Source: Actinomycetes bacterium (GTDB lineage Bacteria > Actinomycetota > Acidimicrobiia > Acidimicrobiales > Ilumatobacteraceae). From it: a stretch of DNA of 33,374 nucleotides. The position numbers and the translations under genes are program-made. Where the stretch lies: positions 1-33,374 of the forward strand of contig JANYDH010000041.1 of assembly GCA_025359865.1 (NCBI GenBank), in the 5' to 3' direction. Positions 21,822 through 33,366 of this stretch are shown here, piece by piece (the first letter of the stretch is position 1; the number at the start of each line of letters is the position of its first letter). The notes beneath the pieces were generated by a model that was not told where the DNA came from, ran no database searches, and saw only the letters and a program-made list of their open reading frames with translations.

Positions 21822-22652
21822 GTGTTGTCACGCCCCGAAGTCAACGAACTGCTGTCACGCCATGGTCTGGCGCCACGACGCGATCTCGGCCAGAACTTCG
21901 TCGTCGACCCCAACACGGTGCGACGCATCGCCCGACTCGCCGGCGTCGGTGCCGGCGACCATGTACTCGAAATCGGCGCCGGCCTCGGCTCGCTCACACT
22001 GGCGCTGGCCGAGACGGGTGCAACCGTTCGGGCGATCGAGATCGATCGCGGTGTGGTGCCTGTGCTCCGCGAGGTTGTTGCGCCGCACCCCAACGTCACG
22101 GTGGTCGAGGCCGATGCGATGCGAGTGGACTGGGGCGACATGCTCGCAGGAAGCGACCGTTGGACGTTGGTTGCCAACCTGCCGTACAACATCGCTACTC
22201 CGCTCGTGTGCGATCTGCTCGACAAGGTGCCCGCCATCGAGCACCTTCTGGTGATGGTGCAGCGTGAGGTCGCCGAGAGGATCTGTGCTCCGGCCCGCAC
22301 CGCTGCCTACGGCGCAGTTTCGGTCAAGGTGGCGTACTGGGCCGAGGCTCGCATCGCGGGCATCGTTCCGGCCACGGTGTTCGTTCCCAAGCCTAACGTC
22401 GAGTCCGCGCTCGCCGACATCACCCGCCGGACCGGCCCTGCGGTCGAGGTTCCGCCGGAACAGTTGTTTCACCTCGTCCGCACCGCGTTCACCCACCGCC
22501 GCAAGATGCTGCGCCGGTCGCTACTCGGGGTGGTGACCCCCGAAGTGTTCGACGCCGCCGGGATCGACGGGCAGCGTCGGCCTGAAGAACTCGACATCAC
22601 CGAGTGGGGTGCACTGACGGCAGCCCTGATCACACACGAGTCCACCCGTTGA
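21822..22652 (+). CDS. rsmA: 16S rRNA (adenine1518/1519-N6)-dimethyltransferase RsmA
   Basis: A 276-residue methyltransferase, also known as KsgA. RRDLGQNFVVDPNTVRRIAR is the family start, HVLEIGAGLGSLTLALAE is the SAM-binding motif I, NLPYNIATPLV contains the catalytic NLPY, and HRRKMLRRSL lies in the C-terminal domain. It dimethylates two adenines near the 3' end of 16S rRNA. GTG 21822 is chosen as the start; TTG 21810 and TTG 21825 are also possible. It follows the exported protein by 5 bp and overlaps ispE by TTGA. Confidence 0.95.
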   Translation: MLSRPEVNELLSRHGLAPRRDLGQNFVVDPNTVRRIARLAGVGAGDHVLEIGAGLGSLTLALAETGATVRAIEIDRGVVPVLREVVAPHPNVTVVEADAMRVDWGDMLAGSDRWTLVANLPYNIATPLVCDLLDKVPAIEHLLVMVQREVAERICAPARTAAYGAVSVKVAYWAEARIAGIVPATVFVPKPNVESALADITRRTGPAVEVPPEQLFHLVRTAFTHRRKMLRRSLLGVVTPEVFDAAGIDGQRRPEELDITEWGALTAALITHESTR

Positions 22653-23404
22653 TCACCATTCAGCCAATCACCATTCAGGCATCCGCCAAACTGACACTCT
22701 CGTTACGGATCACCGGCGTCCGTCCTGACGGCTACCACCTGATCGACGCCGAAATGGTCTCGCTGGCGTTGGCCGACACGTTGACGATCGACCCGACCGG
22801 CATGGGGCTCAGTGCCGACGGTCCGTTCAGCGCCGGGATGCCACTCGACGACACGAACCTCGTCGCGAAGGCGTTGGCGCTCGCTGGTCGCAACGCACGC
22901 GTACACATTCACAAGGCCATTCCTCACGGGGGCGGATTGGGTGGCGGTTCTGCCGATGCGGCGGCCATGTTGCGGTGGGCCGGATTCGCGGACCTCGTCG
23001 CCGCTTCGAGGTTCGGCGCTGACATCGCCTTCTGCATGATTGGCGGATTGGCACGCGTTCGCGGAATCGGAGAGGTGATCGAACCGTTGCCGTTCCGCAA
23101 GCTGGACGTCACCCTCGTCATCCCGCCACTGTCGGTGAGTACCCCGGCCGCCTACCGGGCATGGGACGAGCTGGCCGCCTCACATCCGGCCAATGCGCAC
23201 GAGAGCATCAATGAACTCGAGGCAGCGGCACTCGCAGTGGAACCGCGCCTTGTCGCGTGGCGTAACCGGATCACCGACGCGTCCGGCCTTGTTCCTACGC
23301 TCGCCGGAAGCGGCGCGACCTGGTTCCTGCTCGGGCACCACCCAGAGCTGGTATCGGCCTGTGCGGATGCTCGCGTGGTGCTCACGCACACAGTGCCAGC
23401 CTGA
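22649..23404 (+). CDS. ispE: 4-diphosphocytidyl-2-C-methyl-D-erythritol kinase IspE
   Basis: A 251-residue GHMP kinase of the MEP isoprenoid pathway. ASAKLTLSLRITGVRPDGYH is the conserved N-terminal substrate block, PHGGGLGGGSADAAAMLRWA is the ATP-binding loop, and PTLAGSGATWFLL is the C-terminal motif. It is short for the family (usually about 280-310 residues), with the helical stretch after the ATP loop trimmed. The likely start is TTG 22649, overlapping the rsmA stop. A 12-bp direct repeat, ATCACCATTCAG, occurs at 22652-22663 and 22667-22678 and doubles ITIQ at the N-terminus. Confidence 0.92.
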   Translation: MITIQPITIQASAKLTLSLRITGVRPDGYHLIDAEMVSLALADTLTIDPTGMGLSADGPFSAGMPLDDTNLVAKALALAGRNARVHIHKAIPHGGGLGGGSADAAAMLRWAGFADLVAASRFGADIAFCMIGGLARVRGIGEVIEPLPFRKLDVTLVIPPLSVSTPAAYRAWDELAASHPANAHESINELEAAALAVEPRLVAWRNRITDASGLVPTLAGSGATWFLLGHHPELVSACADARVVLTHTVPA

Positions 23405-23792: not shown

Positions 23793-23863
23793 TCCGGGGT
23801 CGTTCAATGGCAGGACAGCGGTTTTTGGAGCCGCTTATAGGGGTTCGAGTCCTCTCCCCGGAA
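23793..23863 (+). tRNA. tRNA-Gln (anticodon UUG)
   Basis: A 71-nt cloverleaf. Acceptor arms TCCGGGG and CCCCGGA pair fully; the D arm contains GTTCAATGGCAGGAC, as in bacterial tRNA-Gln. The anticodon stem GCGGT/GCCGC encloses the loop TTTTGGA, giving anticodon TTG. The T arm is AGGGG-TTCGAGT-CCTCT with one G-T pair. The discriminator is A, and CCA is not encoded (CAC follows). It lies 37 bp before glmU and could share its transcript. Confidence 0.95.
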
Positions 23864-23900
23864 CACCATCAGCCCATTCAACGGCGTCGCACGCTAGACA

Positions 23901-25004
23901 ATGGCCATGGCAGTCTCCGCGATCGTCCTCGCTGCCGGCGAGGGAACCCGCATGCGCTCGTCGCGCCCGAAGCCCCTCCACATGATCTGCGGGCGGGCCA
24001 TGGTGATGCACGTCATCCATGCCTTGCACGGACTCGACGTCGACCGCACCGTGGTGGTCGTCGGCCACGACGCCGAACGGGTCACCAAGAAGGTGCAAGA
24101 GCAGGCCCCCGAGTGGGCTCACGTCAGTTTCGTCGAGCAAACCATCCAGCGCGGCACGGGCGACGCGGCAATGGTTGGCATGACGGCTATTCCTGGTGAC
24201 GACCTCGACGACGAATCCACGATCGTCGTCCTGCCCGGCGACACGCCGTTACTTCGGCCCGAGACCCTCGCCGAGTTGGTGGCTGCGCACGTCGCCAACG
24301 GGTTTGCCGCCACGCTCATCACCAGCGTGTTGGACGACCCAACGGGGTATGGACGCATCATTCGCGCCCCATCGAAGTCTGGCGATGGACGGGTACTGCG
24401 CATCGTCGAACAGCGCGACGCCACGCACGACGAGCGCGCCGTCGCCGAGGTTTGTACCAGCATGTATGCGTTTCGGCGCGACCTGCTCGGCCCGGCCCTA
24501 CGTCATCTCTCGCCCGACAACTCCCAGGGCGAGTACTACCTCACCGATGTCATCAGCGCCCTTGCGTCCATGGGCCATCGCATTGGGTGCGTCATTGCGC
24601 CTGAGGAAGAAACGCAGGGCGTCAACGATCGTTGGCAACTCGCACTGGCTGAACGCGAACTTCGCCTGCGGACCAACCGCTCGTGGCTGCTCAACGGCGT
24701 GACGATGCTCGATCCGAGCCACACCTTTCTCGACGTAACCGTGCAACTCGGTCGCGACGTCACGCTGTATCCCGGCACGATCTTGCAGGGTTCCACCGTC
24801 ATCGGCAGCGGTTGCGAAATCGGGCCCGATACGCGACTGGTTGACTGCGTCGTCGGCGCCGACTGCGTGGTGGAAAACACCGTCGGAACCGACAGCGAGA
24901 TCGGCGTAGCCGCTCACGTCGGCCCATACGCCCATCTGCCTAGCGGAAGTTCTGTCGCTGCGGGCCAGGGCACCGGTGCGTTCTACACTGCACCCACCGC
25001 CTGA
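23901..25004 (+). CDS. glmU: GlmU-like UDP-GlcNAc pyrophosphorylase lacking the acetyltransferase half
   Basis: A 367-residue protein. The N-terminal uridylyltransferase is complete: VLAAGEGTRMRSSRPKPLH, then QRGTGDAA, LPGDTPLLRP (metal Asp), GYGRIIR, NSQGEYYLTDVI and QGVNDR. It makes UDP-GlcNAc from GlcNAc-1-phosphate and UTP. The left-handed beta-helix starts (VTLYPGTILQGSTVIGSGCE) but stops after GPYAHLPSGSSVAAGQGTGA. Ordinary GlmU has 450-490 residues; the missing part holds the acetyl-CoA site and the catalytic His (H363 in E. coli). No remnant of it follows in any frame before prs. Acetylation of glucosamine-1-phosphate must therefore come from elsewhere. Start ATG 23901 or 23907; no ribosome site is seen. 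Confidence 0.9.
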   Translation: MAMAVSAIVLAAGEGTRMRSSRPKPLHMICGRAMVMHVIHALHGLDVDRTVVVVGHDAERVTKKVQEQAPEWAHVSFVEQTIQRGTGDAAMVGMTAIPGDDLDDESTIVVLPGDTPLLRPETLAELVAAHVANGFAATLITSVLDDPTGYGRIIRAPSKSGDGRVLRIVEQRDATHDERAVAEVCTSMYAFRRDLLGPALRHLSPDNSQGEYYLTDVISALASMGHRIGCVIAPEEETQGVNDRWQLALAERELRLRTNRSWLLNGVTMLDPSHTFLDVTVQLGRDVTLYPGTILQGSTVIGSGCEIGPDTRLVDCVVGADCVVENTVGTDSEIGVAAHVGPYAHLPSGSSVAAGQGTGAFYTAPTA

Positions 25005-25025
25005 CAGCACACACCGGGAGTTTCG

Positions 25026-26015
25026 ATGGAGAAGGTCACCACCAAGCGAATGTCGCTCTATTCGGGGCGCACGCATCCTGCACTCGCGGAGGAGGTCGGC
25101 GACTGCCTGGGCATCGAGTTGGGCCATCCGAATCTCGTGGAGTTCGCCAATGGCGAGTATCGGCCACGGTTCGGCGAGAGCATCCGCGGCAGCGACGTGT
25201 TCGTCATGCAATCCCACTACGGCTGTGACGGGCGCAGCATCAACGACTCGATCATGGAGCAGCTGATCATGATCGATGCTGCGTATCGCGCTTCAGCCAA
25301 GCGGATCACCGCCGTATGTCCGTTCTACGGGTATGCGCGTCAGGACCGCAAGGCCGAGGGGCGCGAGCCCATCACCGCACGCCTCGTAGCCGATCTGTTC
25401 AAGGCCGCCGGCGCCAAGCGGATGGTCTCGATCGACCTGCATAGCGGCCAGATTCAGGGATTTTTCGAAGGGCCAGTCGACCACCTCACCGCGATGCCGG
25501 TACTGGAGAGCTACATCCGCCAGCATGCCGAAAACCCAGTCATCGTGTCCCCCGATGCGGGTCGCATCAAGGTCGCCGAGCGGATGGCGCAGCACCTCAG
25601 CGACAAGGGCGCCGATCTCGCATTCATCTACAAGCGCCGACCGAAGGGCACCACCAACGTTACCGAGGCCAAAGAGGTGATCGGTGATGTCGACGGCCGG
25701 CTGTGCATCCTCACCGACGACATGATCGACAGCGGCAGCACCATCTGCTCGGCGGCCGACATTTTGTTGAAGCGCGGCGCCACCGAGGTGTGGGCCATGG
25801 CTACCCATGGCGTGCTCAGCGGCCCGGCCATCGATCGACTGAAGAACTCTCGGATCGAGCGGGTGGTGTTGACCAACACGGTCCCACTGCCACCCGAGAA
25901 GCAGATCGACAAGATCGAGGTGCTCTCCATCGCCCCGCTCATCGCCTCTGCGCTCAATGCCGTGTTCGACGACACCAGCGTGAGCGAGATATTCGGCGGA
26001 GAAAACCAAGCCTGA
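25026..26015 (+). CDS. prs: Ribose-phosphate pyrophosphokinase
   Basis: A 329-residue PRPP synthetase. FANGEYRPRFGESIRGSDVF is near the start, CPFYGYARQDRK is the ATP-binding flexible-loop region, MVSIDLHSGQIQGFF gives the metal-binding DLHS block, YKRRPKGTTN is conserved, and LTDDMIDSGSTIC is the ribose-5-phosphate (PRPP) loop. It makes PRPP from ribose-5-phosphate and ATP for nucleotide, His and Trp synthesis. The length is normal, a GGGAG ribosome site precedes the ATG, and it follows glmU by 21 bp, as in other actinobacteria. Confidence 0.97.
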   Translation: MEKVTTKRMSLYSGRTHPALAEEVGDCLGIELGHPNLVEFANGEYRPRFGESIRGSDVFVMQSHYGCDGRSINDSIMEQLIMIDAAYRASAKRITAVCPFYGYARQDRKAEGREPITARLVADLFKAAGAKRMVSIDLHSGQIQGFFEGPVDHLTAMPVLESYIRQHAENPVIVSPDAGRIKVAERMAQHLSDKGADLAFIYKRRPKGTTNVTEAKEVIGDVDGRLCILTDDMIDSGSTICSAADILLKRGATEVWAMATHGVLSGPAIDRLKNSRIERVVLTNTVPLPPEKQIDKIEVLSIAPLIASALNAVFDDTSVSEIFGGENQA

Positions 26016-29494: not shown

Positions 29495-31147
29495 TCAGCG
29501 GGGTTCGTCGCGCACGACGCGACCGGCGCTCAGCTCGATCGTGCGGGTGAGGCGCACATGGTCGAGCAACTCACGGTCGTGGGTGACGAGCAACACCGTG
29601 CCGCGGAACGCCTCGAGCGCCACCTCCAGTTGCTCGATCGCGGGGAGGTCAAGGTGGTTCGTCGGTTCGTCGAGCACGAGGCAGTTGGTGCCACTAGCCA
29701 TCAGTGCCGCCAACACCGCTCGCGTGCGTTCACCGGGCGACAACGACGCCGTCGGACGGTTCACCTCACCGGCCCCGATGCCGAACTTGGCCAGCAGCGT
29801 GCGGGCCTCGGAAATGCTGAGCGACGTCTCTTGCATGAATGCTTCCAGCAGCGTGGTGTGCTCGGACAGCTGCAATCGAGACTGCTCGAGTTCGCCGACG
29901 ACGACACTCGGGCCAAGATGGCGCCCTCCGGCCTTAATGTCCTGGCGGCCCAGCAACACGCGTAACAGCGTGGACTTACCGCTGCCATTGTTGCCCACGA
30001 TCGCGATCCGCTCGCCAGAACCGATGGCGAGTGAGACCGGGCCGAGCTCGAATGATCCGACCCGAGCAGTGGCATCGACGAGCCGGGCAACAACAGCGCC
30101 GCTGCGCTCGGCCTCACCGAACGTCATCCTCAGCTGCCATGCTTCGCGTGGCTCTTCGACCACATCGAGTCGTTCCAACGCACGTTCGGTCCGGGCGGCC
30201 TTGCCTGCCAACTGCTCGGACTGATTGATCTTGAACGACTTGATGTGCTTGTCGCCGTCGTCGGGCTTCTTCTTTGCCTTGCCCAGTCCCTGCGTCGCCC
30301 ATTCCCGTTCGCGCTGGGCGCGCCCGAGTAGGTTGCCCTTCTTGTCGGCATAGTCGTCATACCGGTCGCGAGCGTGTTGGGCGGCGAGTTCACTCTCGGC
30401 AAGAAACGCGTCCCACCCACCCGCATAGCCCGAGAGTTGATGTGTGAACGGGTCGAGCTCAGCCACGTGGGTGATCGTTCGACGCAAGAATTCGCGATCA
30501 TGGCTGACGACCACGATCCCGACCTTCTGTTCGATCATCCAGGTCTCGAGCCGTGCCAGCCCGGCAAGGTCGAGGTCATTGGTCGGCTCGTCCAACAAGA
30601 ACACATCGAACCGGGCCAGCAAGAGCGCTGCAAGCCCGACGCGTGCCGCCTCGCCACCGGACAGTGTGGACATCGGTTGATCGAGCAGCCGGTCGGCAAG
30701 CCCGAGCTCGGCCCACACGACACCCACTCGCGATTCAAGGTCGGCTCCGCCGAGCGCCAACCACCGGTCAAGTGCGTCCGCGTACCTGTCATCGGCGCCT
30801 GCCACGCCCTCAGCGAGCGCCGTGGTGGATTCGTCGAGCATGGTCATTGCGGCGGTCACTCCGGCGCGCCTGCCGAGGTACTGCGTCACCAACTCGGATT
30901 CGTCTCGCTCGGGCTCCTGGGGGAGGTAGCCGATCGTTGCAGTGGGCGGAGTGGCCAGGACCGAACCGGCATCGACTGCCATCTGGCCGGCGATCACCTT
31001 CAGCAATGTTGACTTCCCCACTCCGTTCGGCCCAACCAGCCCGGTACGGCGGCCGGGGATGATGTCGAGGTCGACCCCATCGAAGATCGTGGTGGTGCCG
31101 AGCGCCATCTTCAGCGCCCTGGCGTGCAACGTGGCGAATGCTGACAT
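29495..31147 (-). CDS. ABC-F family ATP-binding protein
   Basis: A 550-residue protein with two ABC ATPase domains and no membrane segments. Domain 1 has GPNGVGKST, signature LSGGEAARVGLAAL and DEPTNDLDL; domain 2 has GNNGSGKST, LSPGERTRAVLAAL and DEPTNHLDLP. Between them lies the charged linker (about 235-330: NLLGRAQREREWATQGLGKA then KKKPDDGDKHIKSF) that reaches into the ribosome in this family. ABC-F proteins act on stalled ribosomes or protect them from antibiotics; which applies here cannot be read. A GGAG ribosome site precedes the ATG. The stop lies 24 bp before the start of the lipoprotein gene, so the two are probably co-transcribed. Confidence 0.93.
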   Translation of the reverse strand: MSAFATLHARALKMALGTTTIFDGVDLDIIPGRRTGLVGPNGVGKSTLLKVIAGQMAVDAGSVLATPPTATIGYLPQEPERDESELVTQYLGRRAGVTAAMTMLDESTTALAEGVAGADDRYADALDRWLALGGADLESRVGVVWAELGLADRLLDQPMSTLSGGEAARVGLAALLLARFDVFLLDEPTNDLDLAGLARLETWMIEQKVGIVVVSHDREFLRRTITHVAELDPFTHQLSGYAGGWDAFLAESELAAQHARDRYDDYADKKGNLLGRAQREREWATQGLGKAKKKPDDGDKHIKSFKINQSEQLAGKAARTERALERLDVVEEPREAWQLRMTFGEAERSGAVVARLVDATARVGSFELGPVSLAIGSGERIAIVGNNGSGKSTLLRVLLGRQDIKAGGRHLGPSVVVGELEQSRLQLSEHTTLLEAFMQETSLSISEARTLLAKFGIGAGEVNRPTASLSPGERTRAVLAALMASGTNCLVLDEPTNHLDLPAIEQLEVALEAFRGTVLLVTHDRELLDHVRLTRTIELSAGRVVRDEPR

Positions 31148-31248
31148 GGTGGTCTCCGATGGTTCGAGGCGGTAGCGGACCAGTCGTCACAGCACGCCGT
31201 ACATCTTGCCACGCGAGCGGTACTTGCCAAGGGTGCTTTGATGACGGT

Positions 31249-33366
31249 ATGGGATGCGAACGAACCCGCGCGTGGGTGATGGTGTCCGTGCTCGGCCTCA
31301 GTGTCGTTGTTGGCTGCACATCTGCTTCTTCCGGTGCGCGGGCAGTTCGCTCGGACGACGCTGCAACGGACTTGTTGCCGCCGGTAGTGACCACGGTCCC
31401 AGGGCAAACGCTCCCCACCATCGTCACCCCCGATGCCAGCACGAGCATGCCTGCCGTGCCTGCTGTGCCTGCTGTGCCTGCTGTGCCTGCTGTGCCGGGC
31501 ACCCCGCCATCCCCACACAAGCCGTGGACGGTGCTGGTCTACCTTGCCGCCGACAACAACCTCGAACAAGCGGGCGTCGACGACCTTCGCGAGATGGTCA
31601 CCGGGGCGAGTGCCGACATGAACCTGATCGTCATGTTCGACAGGTCACGTCGTGGCGGCGACGAAGCGGGCTACTCCTCCGAGGCGCTCGGTACGTTCGG
31701 CGACTGGAACGGAGTCAAACTGCTCGACATCGCCCCAGACGGCATCCGCGATCTGGGCATGTCAGGCGACGTCGACATGACCGATCCAGCAGTGCTCGAG
31801 AAGTTCGTAGCGACCGAACTGCACCAGTATCCCTCCGACCACACGGCCTTGATGCTGTGGGACCATGCCAGCGGGTGGCGGGGCTACGGCCAAGACCAGA
31901 GCAGCCAGCGGTCGGCATCTCTCAGCCCCGATCAGATCGCGTCGGCCGTCGGCGAAGGCCTTCGCAAGGCTGGCCTCGGGCAACTTTCGATACTCGGGTT
32001 CGATGCGTGTCTGATGGCCAACCTCGAGGTTGCCACCGCGATGGCGCCGGTCGCCGGGCTGCTGTTCGCTTCGGAGGAAATCGTCCCCAACCACGGTGCC
32101 AACTACACGGTGCTGCCACAAGCCGTAGCGGGCGACGCCGCGGAGTTCGGGACCGCCATGGTCGACGGATTCGTCGCACAGGCCCAGCAGGAACACACCG
32201 ACGACCAGATCACGATGTCGCTGATCGATCTCGGCACGATCCCCCAGCTCACCGCTGCCGAAGTGGCGTTTACAACAGCGCTGACCTCCAGCATGAATAG
32301 CGACGCGGTGAGCCTTGCCTTGGCCGCAGAGTCCGCAATCTCGTTCGCCTATCAGCCGAACCCGTCAGACGACCTTCAACTCCGCGACCTTGGCCAGTTG
32401 CTCACTGGATTTTCGAGTCTCGATCCAGCCACGTCGGCGGCCGCTGTGGCGTTCGATCAGGCCCTGTCGGCATCGGTGCTGGTACACACCGAGGGGACCG
32501 GATTCACCGGCGCTCGAGGAATGTCGATTTACTTCCCCAACTCCGGCGATCAGTACTACCTCACCGCATTCTCCGGTATCAGCACGGCCAAACCATGGGC
32601 AGACATGCTCACCCGGTTCTTCGAAGCCGGTGGTGTACTCTCCGGCCGCGCCGGGTTCTCGTTCCTGCACCCGGAACTGACGCCGCAGGTGACCTTCGAC
32701 GCCGACGGACTGGCCGTCACCGGCCAATTGGATCCAGCGGAGATCGCGACGATCGCTTCGGCGACGGTGATCTACGGTCTTTACTCCGCCGATGAGGACA
32801 CGTTGGTGGGCATTGGCCAAGCCCAGGCCGGGATTCTCGATGCCGCTACCGGCACAATCGGAGTGAAGACGCCGCTGTACAACCTCATTCTGAGCGAGGC
32901 CGGTCTGTACCTGGTCGGCTACTACGCGGAGGTCCCCAGCCCCGAGAGTTCCAGCACCACCCTTGCCACACCGATTCTGTACCTCCCGCCCGGCATCACC
33001 GATCCAGCAACCGGAACGAAGGCCTACCTGCTCCTCACGCTGGCGGCCGATGGAACCGTGATCCAGATCGGTGTGTCGTCCATCGGTGACAACGGCACGC
33101 TCGGAGCGTTGGCACTCGATCCCGCAGGAACGATCGAAACGCGGTATCCGGTGTTCCGACCAGGCGGCACCGTTGAGTACCTGTCCTCTTCGGAGATCGA
33201 AACCTCATTCGGAAAATCGATACCGGCGCAACTCGACCAGATCCAGATCTACGTGCAGACCGTGGTTCCGGCCGACAACATCTTCGACGCCAGCACACCC
33301 CTCGGCGTCGGACTCGTCGCCACCGATGTGGGGGGCGTCAGAATCATCGAGACCACCCCGGCCTAG
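31249..33366 (+). CDS. Clostripain-family (C11) cysteine peptidase lipoprotein
   Basis: A 705-residue exported protein. The N-terminus MGCERTRAWVMVSVLGLSVV then VGC is a signal peptide with lipobox VVGC. A Pro/Ala/Val linker built from a 9-bp repeat (PAVPAVPAVPAVPAVP) follows. The catalytic domain begins KPWTVLVYLAADNNLEQAGV, the C11 hallmark; the catalytic His lies in LWDHASGW (H206) and the Cys in GFDACLMAN (C254), with ASEEIVPNHG and RGMSIYFP downstream. The last 200 residues are beta-rich and may be a binding domain. Clostripain relatives cut after Arg or Lys and often self-process. It is divergent from the ABC-F gene and should be surface-anchored. Confidence 0.9.
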   Translation: MGCERTRAWVMVSVLGLSVVVGCTSASSGARAVRSDDAATDLLPPVVTTVPGQTLPTIVTPDASTSMPAVPAVPAVPAVPAVPGTPPSPHKPWTVLVYLAADNNLEQAGVDDLREMVTGASADMNLIVMFDRSRRGGDEAGYSSEALGTFGDWNGVKLLDIAPDGIRDLGMSGDVDMTDPAVLEKFVATELHQYPSDHTALMLWDHASGWRGYGQDQSSQRSASLSPDQIASAVGEGLRKAGLGQLSILGFDACLMANLEVATAMAPVAGLLFASEEIVPNHGANYTVLPQAVAGDAAEFGTAMVDGFVAQAQQEHTDDQITMSLIDLGTIPQLTAAEVAFTTALTSSMNSDAVSLALAAESAISFAYQPNPSDDLQLRDLGQLLTGFSSLDPATSAAAVAFDQALSASVLVHTEGTGFTGARGMSIYFPNSGDQYYLTAFSGISTAKPWADMLTRFFEAGGVLSGRAGFSFLHPELTPQVTFDADGLAVTGQLDPAEIATIASATVIYGLYSADEDTLVGIGQAQAGILDAATGTIGVKTPLYNLILSEAGLYLVGYYAEVPSPESSSTTLATPILYLPPGITDPATGTKAYLLLTLAADGTVIQIGVSSIGDNGTLGALALDPAGTIETRYPVFRPGGTVEYLSSSEIETSFGKSIPAQLDQIQIYVQTVVPADNIFDASTPLGVGLVATDVGGVRIIETTPA
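31449..31493 (+). repeat. 9-bp tandem repeat GCCTGCTGT (5 copies) in the C11 linker
   Basis: Five copies of a 9-bp unit, the first reading GCCTGCCGT and the other four identical. They encode the Pro-Ala-Val repeats between the lipid anchor and the protease domain, so copy number sets the linker length. Confidence 0.93.

Follow-up and report, generated by a model that had tools for sequence, protein, structure and literature searches.

The locus analyzed here raises the question of how a bacterium obtains GlcNAc-1-phosphate when its GlmU, an essential enzyme of cell-wall synthesis, is missing the acetyltransferase half. The step catalyzed by this half is generally viewed as nearly universal among bacteria and as having no equivalent in eukaryotes, and it is considered a drug target. 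The window, by which we mean the whole stretch of 33,374 nucleotides that was analyzed, lies on contig C61 of an Ilumatobacteraceae genome (G000) of the order Acidimicrobiales. On its forward strand, positions 23901..25004 encode a 367-aa GlmU with a uridylyltransferase domain and the first part of a left-handed beta-helix, as judged from the open reading frame and from matches to Pfam, NCBIfam, and PDB GlmUs. A tRNA-Gln (TTG) lies directly 5′ of the gene on the same strand, at 23793-23864 according to ARAGORN and 23793-23863 according to Rfam, and an ispE-like gene lies further upstream (22604..23404, forward strand). Downstream, the glmU stop codon (TGA, 25002-25004) is separated by 21 nt from the in-frame ATG at 25026 of prs, encoding ribose-phosphate diphosphokinase (25026..26015, forward strand; both flanking open reading frames were named by eye). 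The original prediction had this gap right, its end point of 25025 being the base before the prs ATG, and it also correctly reported no decayed remnant of the missing region, none being visible when positions 24961-25360 were inspected by eye in all three forward frames. A similar ispE-like neighbor is present in loci L366 (genome G223) and L370 (by eye), and glmU is likewise followed by prs in G223 (L366, by eye) and in Actinomyces oris (L408, annotated). Elsewhere in the window, positions 31138-33366 hold a 742-aa open reading frame with a PAV-repeat stretch near its N-terminus, which by eye resembles a secreted clostripain-type peptidase.

The uridylyltransferase domain had been called complete and the acetyltransferase region missing, and both descriptions hold. 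Family matches span the window protein from residue 4 to approximately 363, the active-site positions of the uridylyltransferase domain are kept, and PDB GlmUs align up to query residue 361-362; with phmmer, the protein aligns with chain 2qkx, which we take to be M. tuberculosis GlmU, up to chain residue 361. The match to the bifunctional GlmU model TIGR01173 ends at position 344 of 452, short of the histidine needed for acetyl transfer, and scores 339.3 bits as a protein and 337.7 bits in the genome search, below the curated cut-off of 366.85. The acetyltransferase catalytic region is absent, the alignment having no counterpart of the HL[SA]Y region that full-length proteins carry, and the protein closes with a tail, GAFYTAPTA, that is kept within the order.

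Comparison of GlmU across the Acidimicrobiia, proposed with the original prediction, shows the short form to be conserved. The window protein was matched at E 2e-68 or better in 94 of 120 genomes (its own and relatives), and related loci carry public titles that mention Ilumatobacteraceae, Microthrixaceae, Acidimicrobiaceae, and other Acidimicrobiales. Of 148 genomes drawn from the class, 37 belong to the window's order, the window genome included, and 111 do not; GlmU was counted as present at E 1e-50 or better, and as full length above the TIGR01173 cut-off. Within Acidimicrobiales, 33 of 37 genomes have GlmU and none of the 33 reaches the full-length cut-off. Their matches end at model position 333-347, except in G038 (240) and G022 (362, read through the stop). 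In the rest of the class, GlmU is present in 103 of 111 genomes and exceeds the cut-off in 100 of the 103, the three exceptions being G126, whose GlmU lies at the end of a contig, G201, whose GlmU is divided between two contigs, and G223. With all 33 GlmUs of the order short and 100 of 103 elsewhere in the class passing the cut-off, the truncation must be an old and fixed trait of Acidimicrobiales. An assembly error can be excluded because the short form recurs through the order in many assemblies, some of them single-contig (G016, G022, G074, and G103).

Some genomes depart further from the full-length protein. Even shorter GlmUs, consisting of the uridylyltransferase domain alone, are found in G223 (L366:1146-1886) and in G038 of genus g14 (L370:1169-2053), and therefore the helix stump can be lost too; in G053 and G066, also of genus g14, the GlmU match extends only to about residue 258. 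None of the 13 genomes sampled from genera g2, g6, and g10 in the window's family has a clear GlmU (confirmed for G005, G009, and G013), and G104, G105, and G227 are also without a GlmU match.

We compared 109 of 117 short-form loci (89 distinct proteins) with 18 of 26 full-length loci, chosen by a motif filter; 17 of the full-length proteins come from the class and one from another class. Within the first ~300 residues, 66 columns are at least 90% conserved in the full-length set, and 59 of these 66 are kept in at least 90% of the short proteins. The arginine of the LRPG motif, presumably Arg333 of E. coli GlmU, is present in 18/18 full-length and 0/89 short proteins, as expected where acetyltransferase constraint has been lost. 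Most short GlmUs close with the tail G[AP]FY[TD], in which a Tyr (78 of 89 short proteins) replaces a Val (18 of 18 full-length proteins). On the evidence of this alignment, the short GlmU is maintained as a uridylyltransferase with a capped helix stump and is not decaying, because the uridylyltransferase columns are kept, the LRPG arginine is lost, and a new conserved tail has been gained. One position within the retained domain does vary. At 24453-24455 the window gene encodes Cys in place of the Asn that forms part of the EVN motif in all 18 full-length GlmUs and that we take to be the Asn169 equivalent. The same Cys, found in 17 of the 88 other short proteins (18 of 89 in all), could be read as a change of substrate, with the short GlmU turning GlcN-1-P into UDP-GlcN that is acetylated afterwards. 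We regard this as very improbable, as the other uridylyltransferase positions are kept and the Asn itself is retained in 69 of 89 short proteins.

The original prediction held that the cell must obtain GlcNAc-1-P from another acetyltransferase or by salvage, and that a second, full-length glmU would speak against this. A whole-genome search of G000 found no second GlmU, the other TIGR01173 matches scoring at most 72 bits. The C-terminal GlmU half alone gave matches of just 20-36 bits in G000, the best two being WbpD/WlbB-like sugar N-acetyltransferases by eye. The beta-helix acetyltransferases considered and set aside as replacements are, also by eye, of the WbpD/WlbB-like (C167, C18), CysE, DapD, and gamma-carbonic-anhydrase types. 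The enzymes preceding GlmU in the pathway are present: G000 has a glmM above its cut-off, adjoined by a GlmS-like gene that is divergent and encodes 1139 aa (L122:11261-14680, on contig C12). These adjoining genes, and the fixed state of the short GlmU throughout the order, argue for de novo synthesis, and we consider it exceedingly unlikely that GlcNAc uptake or wall recycling followed by phosphorylation supplies the cell.

The long GlmS has a large N-terminal insertion and a conserved C-terminal extension of ~290 aa. The GlmS match lies in an open frame of more than 1100 aa in 12 of 14 genomes searched; the frame in G082 is 812 aa, and G103 encodes an ordinary GlmS that passes the cut-off. 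As a conserved part of the very enzyme producing GlcN-6-P, the extension is a conceivable home for the lost acetyltransferase, and one of 19 members weakly matches Acetyltransf_17 (E 0.071). Across the 19 members there is no significant Pfam match, and in structural comparison it mainly resembles PAS/GAF-like folds (best 7jsr, Z 9.4). We rejected the extension as an acetyltransferase because its occurrence does not follow the short GlmU: long GlmS is also found in other actinobacterial families having full GlmU, all eight genomes outside the order where the extension was detected have full GlmU, and no match was found in G103 or G093, which have short GlmU. A fused acetyltransferase is the least probable of the explanations considered here.

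A search for a stand-alone acetyltransferase, which the original prediction had suggested as a check, did yield a candidate. We collected PF00583 and PF00132 matches in eight genomes of the order with short GlmU and four of the class with full GlmU, and clustered 99 GNATs (90 of 99 matches from the order and 9 of 46 from the class). With 9 of 46 class GNATs read, the contrast between order and class within the clusters is weak, and it is supplied instead by a profile search of the 148 genomes. Three clusters hold all eight order genomes: RimI, an MshD-like family, and a single-domain GNAT of ~145 aa (names by eye). The RimI cluster also occurs in all four class genomes, and the MshD-like cluster in G121 with a further 42-bit link to G129; the sole class link of the ~145-aa cluster is a 40-bit match in G137. 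The member in the window genome is a 145-aa protein (G000:C75:9438-9872). No curated family claims this GNAT, the NCBIfam rows listed for three members lying far under cut-off. Among 14 loci of the order, the genes within ~5 kb of the GNAT include a NUDIX gene (13 loci), a PAC2 gene (12), and a glnD-like gene (9; names by eye), and the copies in G157 and G223 are without these three neighbors (by eye).

In the profile search, this GNAT scores at least 172 bits in 35 of the 37 genomes of the order and, outside the order, in 3 of 111 (G157, G160, and G223), and the next-best score in the draw is 82 bits. A Fisher test gives 5e-28, with genomes that are not independent. Some genomes speak against the pairing with short GlmU: the two order genomes without a match at 1e-8, G006 and G245, are drafts with a short GlmU, and G157 and G160 have the GNAT together with a full GlmU bearing the HLSY histidine region. 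The GNAT is also carried by G009, G104, G105, and G227, in which the class draw gave no GlmU match. Acidimicrobiales is one clade, so that most of the co-occurrence of GNAT and short GlmU is one event, and the independent evidence is that of two lineages.

The first of these is G223, from another family of the class, in which a 246-aa GlmU consisting of the uridylyltransferase alone occurs together with the candidate GNAT. Flanked by ispE-like and prs genes, the short glmU lies away from the ends of a 61-kb contig. All five GlmUs read from sister genomes of G223 are full length, and the seven further genomes drawn from its family all fall short of the 172-bit score for the GNAT. G223 is the sole verified short GlmU among the 103 class genomes with GlmU outside the order, and its coincidence with the GNAT has a probability of 0.03 by chance alone. 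In a tree of 43 rows, whose bootstrap had not settled, the G223 GNAT groups with the G157 and G160 copies (support 81/91), and this group lies inside the main order clade (92/85), which suggests transfer of the gene from Acidimicrobiales. Contamination of G223 by a member of the order is unlikely because its GNAT pairs with no single order genome and the GC of the two contigs agrees (0.59).

The second lineage is Actinomyces oris WVU627, whose 415-kb "plasmid" record NZ_CP116225.1 encodes both a 330-aa GlmU and a GNAT homologue (WP_070513455.1) that is 53% identical to the candidate. The 330-aa protein is annotated just as an NTP transferase and its gene precedes that for ribose-phosphate diphosphokinase; the glmU count covers this record alone and not the main chromosome. 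GNAT homologues occur on 11 plasmid-collection records, including those of Streptomyces (seven), Phyllobacterium, Curtobacterium, and Phocaeicola, and the A. oris record is the only one of the 11 in which a GlmU homologue is paired with the GNAT. Loci L386, L387, L389, and L390 represent Streptomyces linear plasmids, a Phocaeicola plasmid, and a Phyllobacterium plasmid; at three loci viewed in annotated records, no sugar-nucleotide gene is annotated beside the homologue. Copies on plasmids whose hosts should have full GlmU speak against the pairing of GNAT and short GlmU; Streptomyces, for one, has a full GlmU. A further homologue is found on a 14.5-kb phage record from human feces (MT836300.1, named Bacteriophage sp.). 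Separately, the Priestia megaterium plasmid pFDU301A encodes a 272-aa uridylyltransferase-only GlmU (L410:2456-3274), presumably an extra copy, on a record, covering the plasmid alone, that is without the GNAT. Schaalia belongs to the same family as Actinomyces. In excerpts from a Tn-seq study of Schaalia odontolytica XH001 (PMC12369343), 10 putatively essential genes are listed for which the database of essential genes offers no orthologue, their predicted functions including "GNAT acetyltransferase activity"; this putatively essential GNAT may belong to the candidate family.

These distributions bear on the possibility that some other acetyltransferase, either another GNAT or a beta-helix enzyme such as one like maltose acetyltransferase, performs the step and that the candidate merely travels with the order. 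Our listing was built from PF00583 and PF00132, from which other folds and very divergent GNATs would escape, and the GNATs read from it were 90 of 99 in the eight order genomes and 9 of 46 in the four class genomes, which leaves room for such an enzyme. The maltose-acetyltransferase-like family is, however, not seen among the G103 matches read (locus C1:748291 being left out) and is present in G121, which has full GlmU (by eye), and both G223 and A. oris tie the candidate GNAT to GlmU loss outside the order. We consider another acetyltransferase unlikely. The candidate GNAT probably performs the lost acetylation step, and the expectation of another acetyltransferase or salvage is supported in its first part by the pairing of a stand-alone GNAT with short GlmU in three lineages.

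We compared the candidate with known GNAT structures and with eukaryotic GNA1. Its AlphaFold model (pLDDT 95.4) has the GNAT fold, and PF00583 matches the G025 member at 65.4 bits. The top Foldseek match is 1z4e, followed by 3fb3 (T. brucei acetyltransferase Tb11.01.2886), the latter with 29% identity over the alignment; 1z4e, titled a transcriptional regulator, is also the best PDB sequence match. The protein of 3fb3 is also that of entry 3i3g. Five of the 53 PDB sequences reached by a profile search at E≤1e-4 are GNA1s, and they come from human, T. brucei, C. elegans, and what we take to be Arabidopsis. A yeast GNA1 query gave just weak GNAT matches in 18 of 25 genomes, one of which (G085, E 0.064) belongs to the candidate family, and the 50 rows listed by VIA-align held other GNATs and no GNA1 entry, a result that excludes nothing. 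PF01704, for the UAP1 type, had no match in 19 genomes, which carries little weight as the model matched no control either.

The active site offers a closer comparison. The excerpted text of PMC3413214 names 3i3g TbGNA1, describes Glu104 and Asp105 of C. elegans GNA1 as binding the sugar 3- and 4-hydroxyls, and gives Tyr149 as a tyrosine proposed to share in catalysis. A Glu78-Asp79 pair within the motif IEDVVVD is present in all 43 GNAT-family rows and aligns with the pair in T. brucei GNA1 (3fb3). It occurs in none of the 63 other GNATs from 12 genomes in which the site could be placed; placement was by text pattern rather than alignment in 71 of 99 GNATs, with 28 unplaced, and some placements may be off. 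The putative catalytic Tyr126 is invariant in 31 rows and seen in all 43, a weak correspondence matched by sequence alone. A Tyr at the catalytic place is common in GNATs. Instead of the conserved active-site Cys of GNA1, the family has an invariant Ser115 (31 rows), and a Ser likewise occurs where T. brucei GNA1 aligns with this stretch. Lys136, which binds phosphate in GNA1, has no conserved counterpart in the family by eye rather than by structure; Arg119 is invariant in 31 rows and a C-terminal Arg is found in most of the 43 (by eye), and these two arginines may bind phosphate in its place.

Taken together, we think it likely that GlmU has become a single-function enzyme in these bacteria and that the lost acetylation has passed to a separate GNA1-like GNAT acting on a glucosamine phosphate. 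The most likely substrate, to judge from the sequence comparisons above, is the 6-phosphate rather than the 1-phosphate. In this scheme, GlmS would make GlcN-6-P, the candidate GNAT would use acetyl-CoA to convert it to GlcNAc-6-P in the manner of eukaryotic GNA1, GlmM would convert GlcNAc-6-P to GlcNAc-1-P, and the short GlmU, including that of the window as a GlcNAc-1-P uridylyltransferase alone, would make UDP-GlcNAc. The fuller proposal, that Acidimicrobiales, Actinomyces, and one further Acidimicrobiia genome all use this eukaryotic order of steps and lost their GlmU halves independently, is one that we hold tentatively. The same GNAT might instead act on GlcN-1-P, after GlmM, as a like-for-like replacement of the lost GlmU half. 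This would explain the same co-occurrence, would leave GlmM specificity unchanged, and is consistent with the partial conservation of GNA1 phosphate-site residues; the Glu-Asp sugar-binding pair nevertheless points to the GNA1 reaction, as does the resemblance to the T. brucei enzyme, and action on GlcN-1-P is, in our view, a serious but rather unlikely alternative.

The GlmU acetyltransferase half is thus missing throughout an order and in a record of a human oral Actinomyces, and there is a concrete candidate for its replacement. If true, acetylation by a GNA1-like GNAT would explain the synthesis of wall precursors in these bacteria, predict natural insensitivity to GlmU acetyltransferase inhibitors, correct annotations and flux models in which GlmU is taken for granted, and provide a bacterial example of the eukaryotic UDP-GlcNAc route. 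Within the portions of the openly licensed PMC literature surveyed, we found no report of a GNAT replacing the GlmU acetyltransferase or of short GlmU in Acidimicrobiia; PMC8666670, from its excerpt, concerns another GNAT fusion.

Several known systems resemble parts of this arrangement. With the bifunctional GlmUs (TIGR01173; 3d8v, 2qkx, and 1hv9), the window protein shares the uridylyltransferase domain and the start of the beta-helix, and glmU adjoins prs in Tsukamurella as it does here. It differs from them in being without the second part of the beta-helix, the catalytic His, and the acetyl-CoA site, and the short proteins have lost the LRPG-type arginine and mostly carry the G[AP]FY[TD] tail. 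Loss of the acetyltransferase domain has been reported for a free-living bacterium, Chlorobaculum limnaeum, whose GlmU is without a C-terminus (PMC7725333); the excerpt from that work concerns a single genome and names no replacement, in contrast to the whole order described here. In the Apicomplexa, according to the excerpted text of PMC5838249, an independently recruited GNAT likewise supplies GlcNAc-6-P, and both rescue of yeast and an assay demonstrated its activity, whereas that of our candidate is inferred. Compared with eukaryotic GNA1 (3fb3/3i3g and C. elegans 4ag7), the candidate shares the GNAT fold, the Glu-Asp pair, and the Tyr at the catalytic place, and differs in being a bacterial protein of predicted activity, with Ser in place of Cys and without conservation of Lys136.
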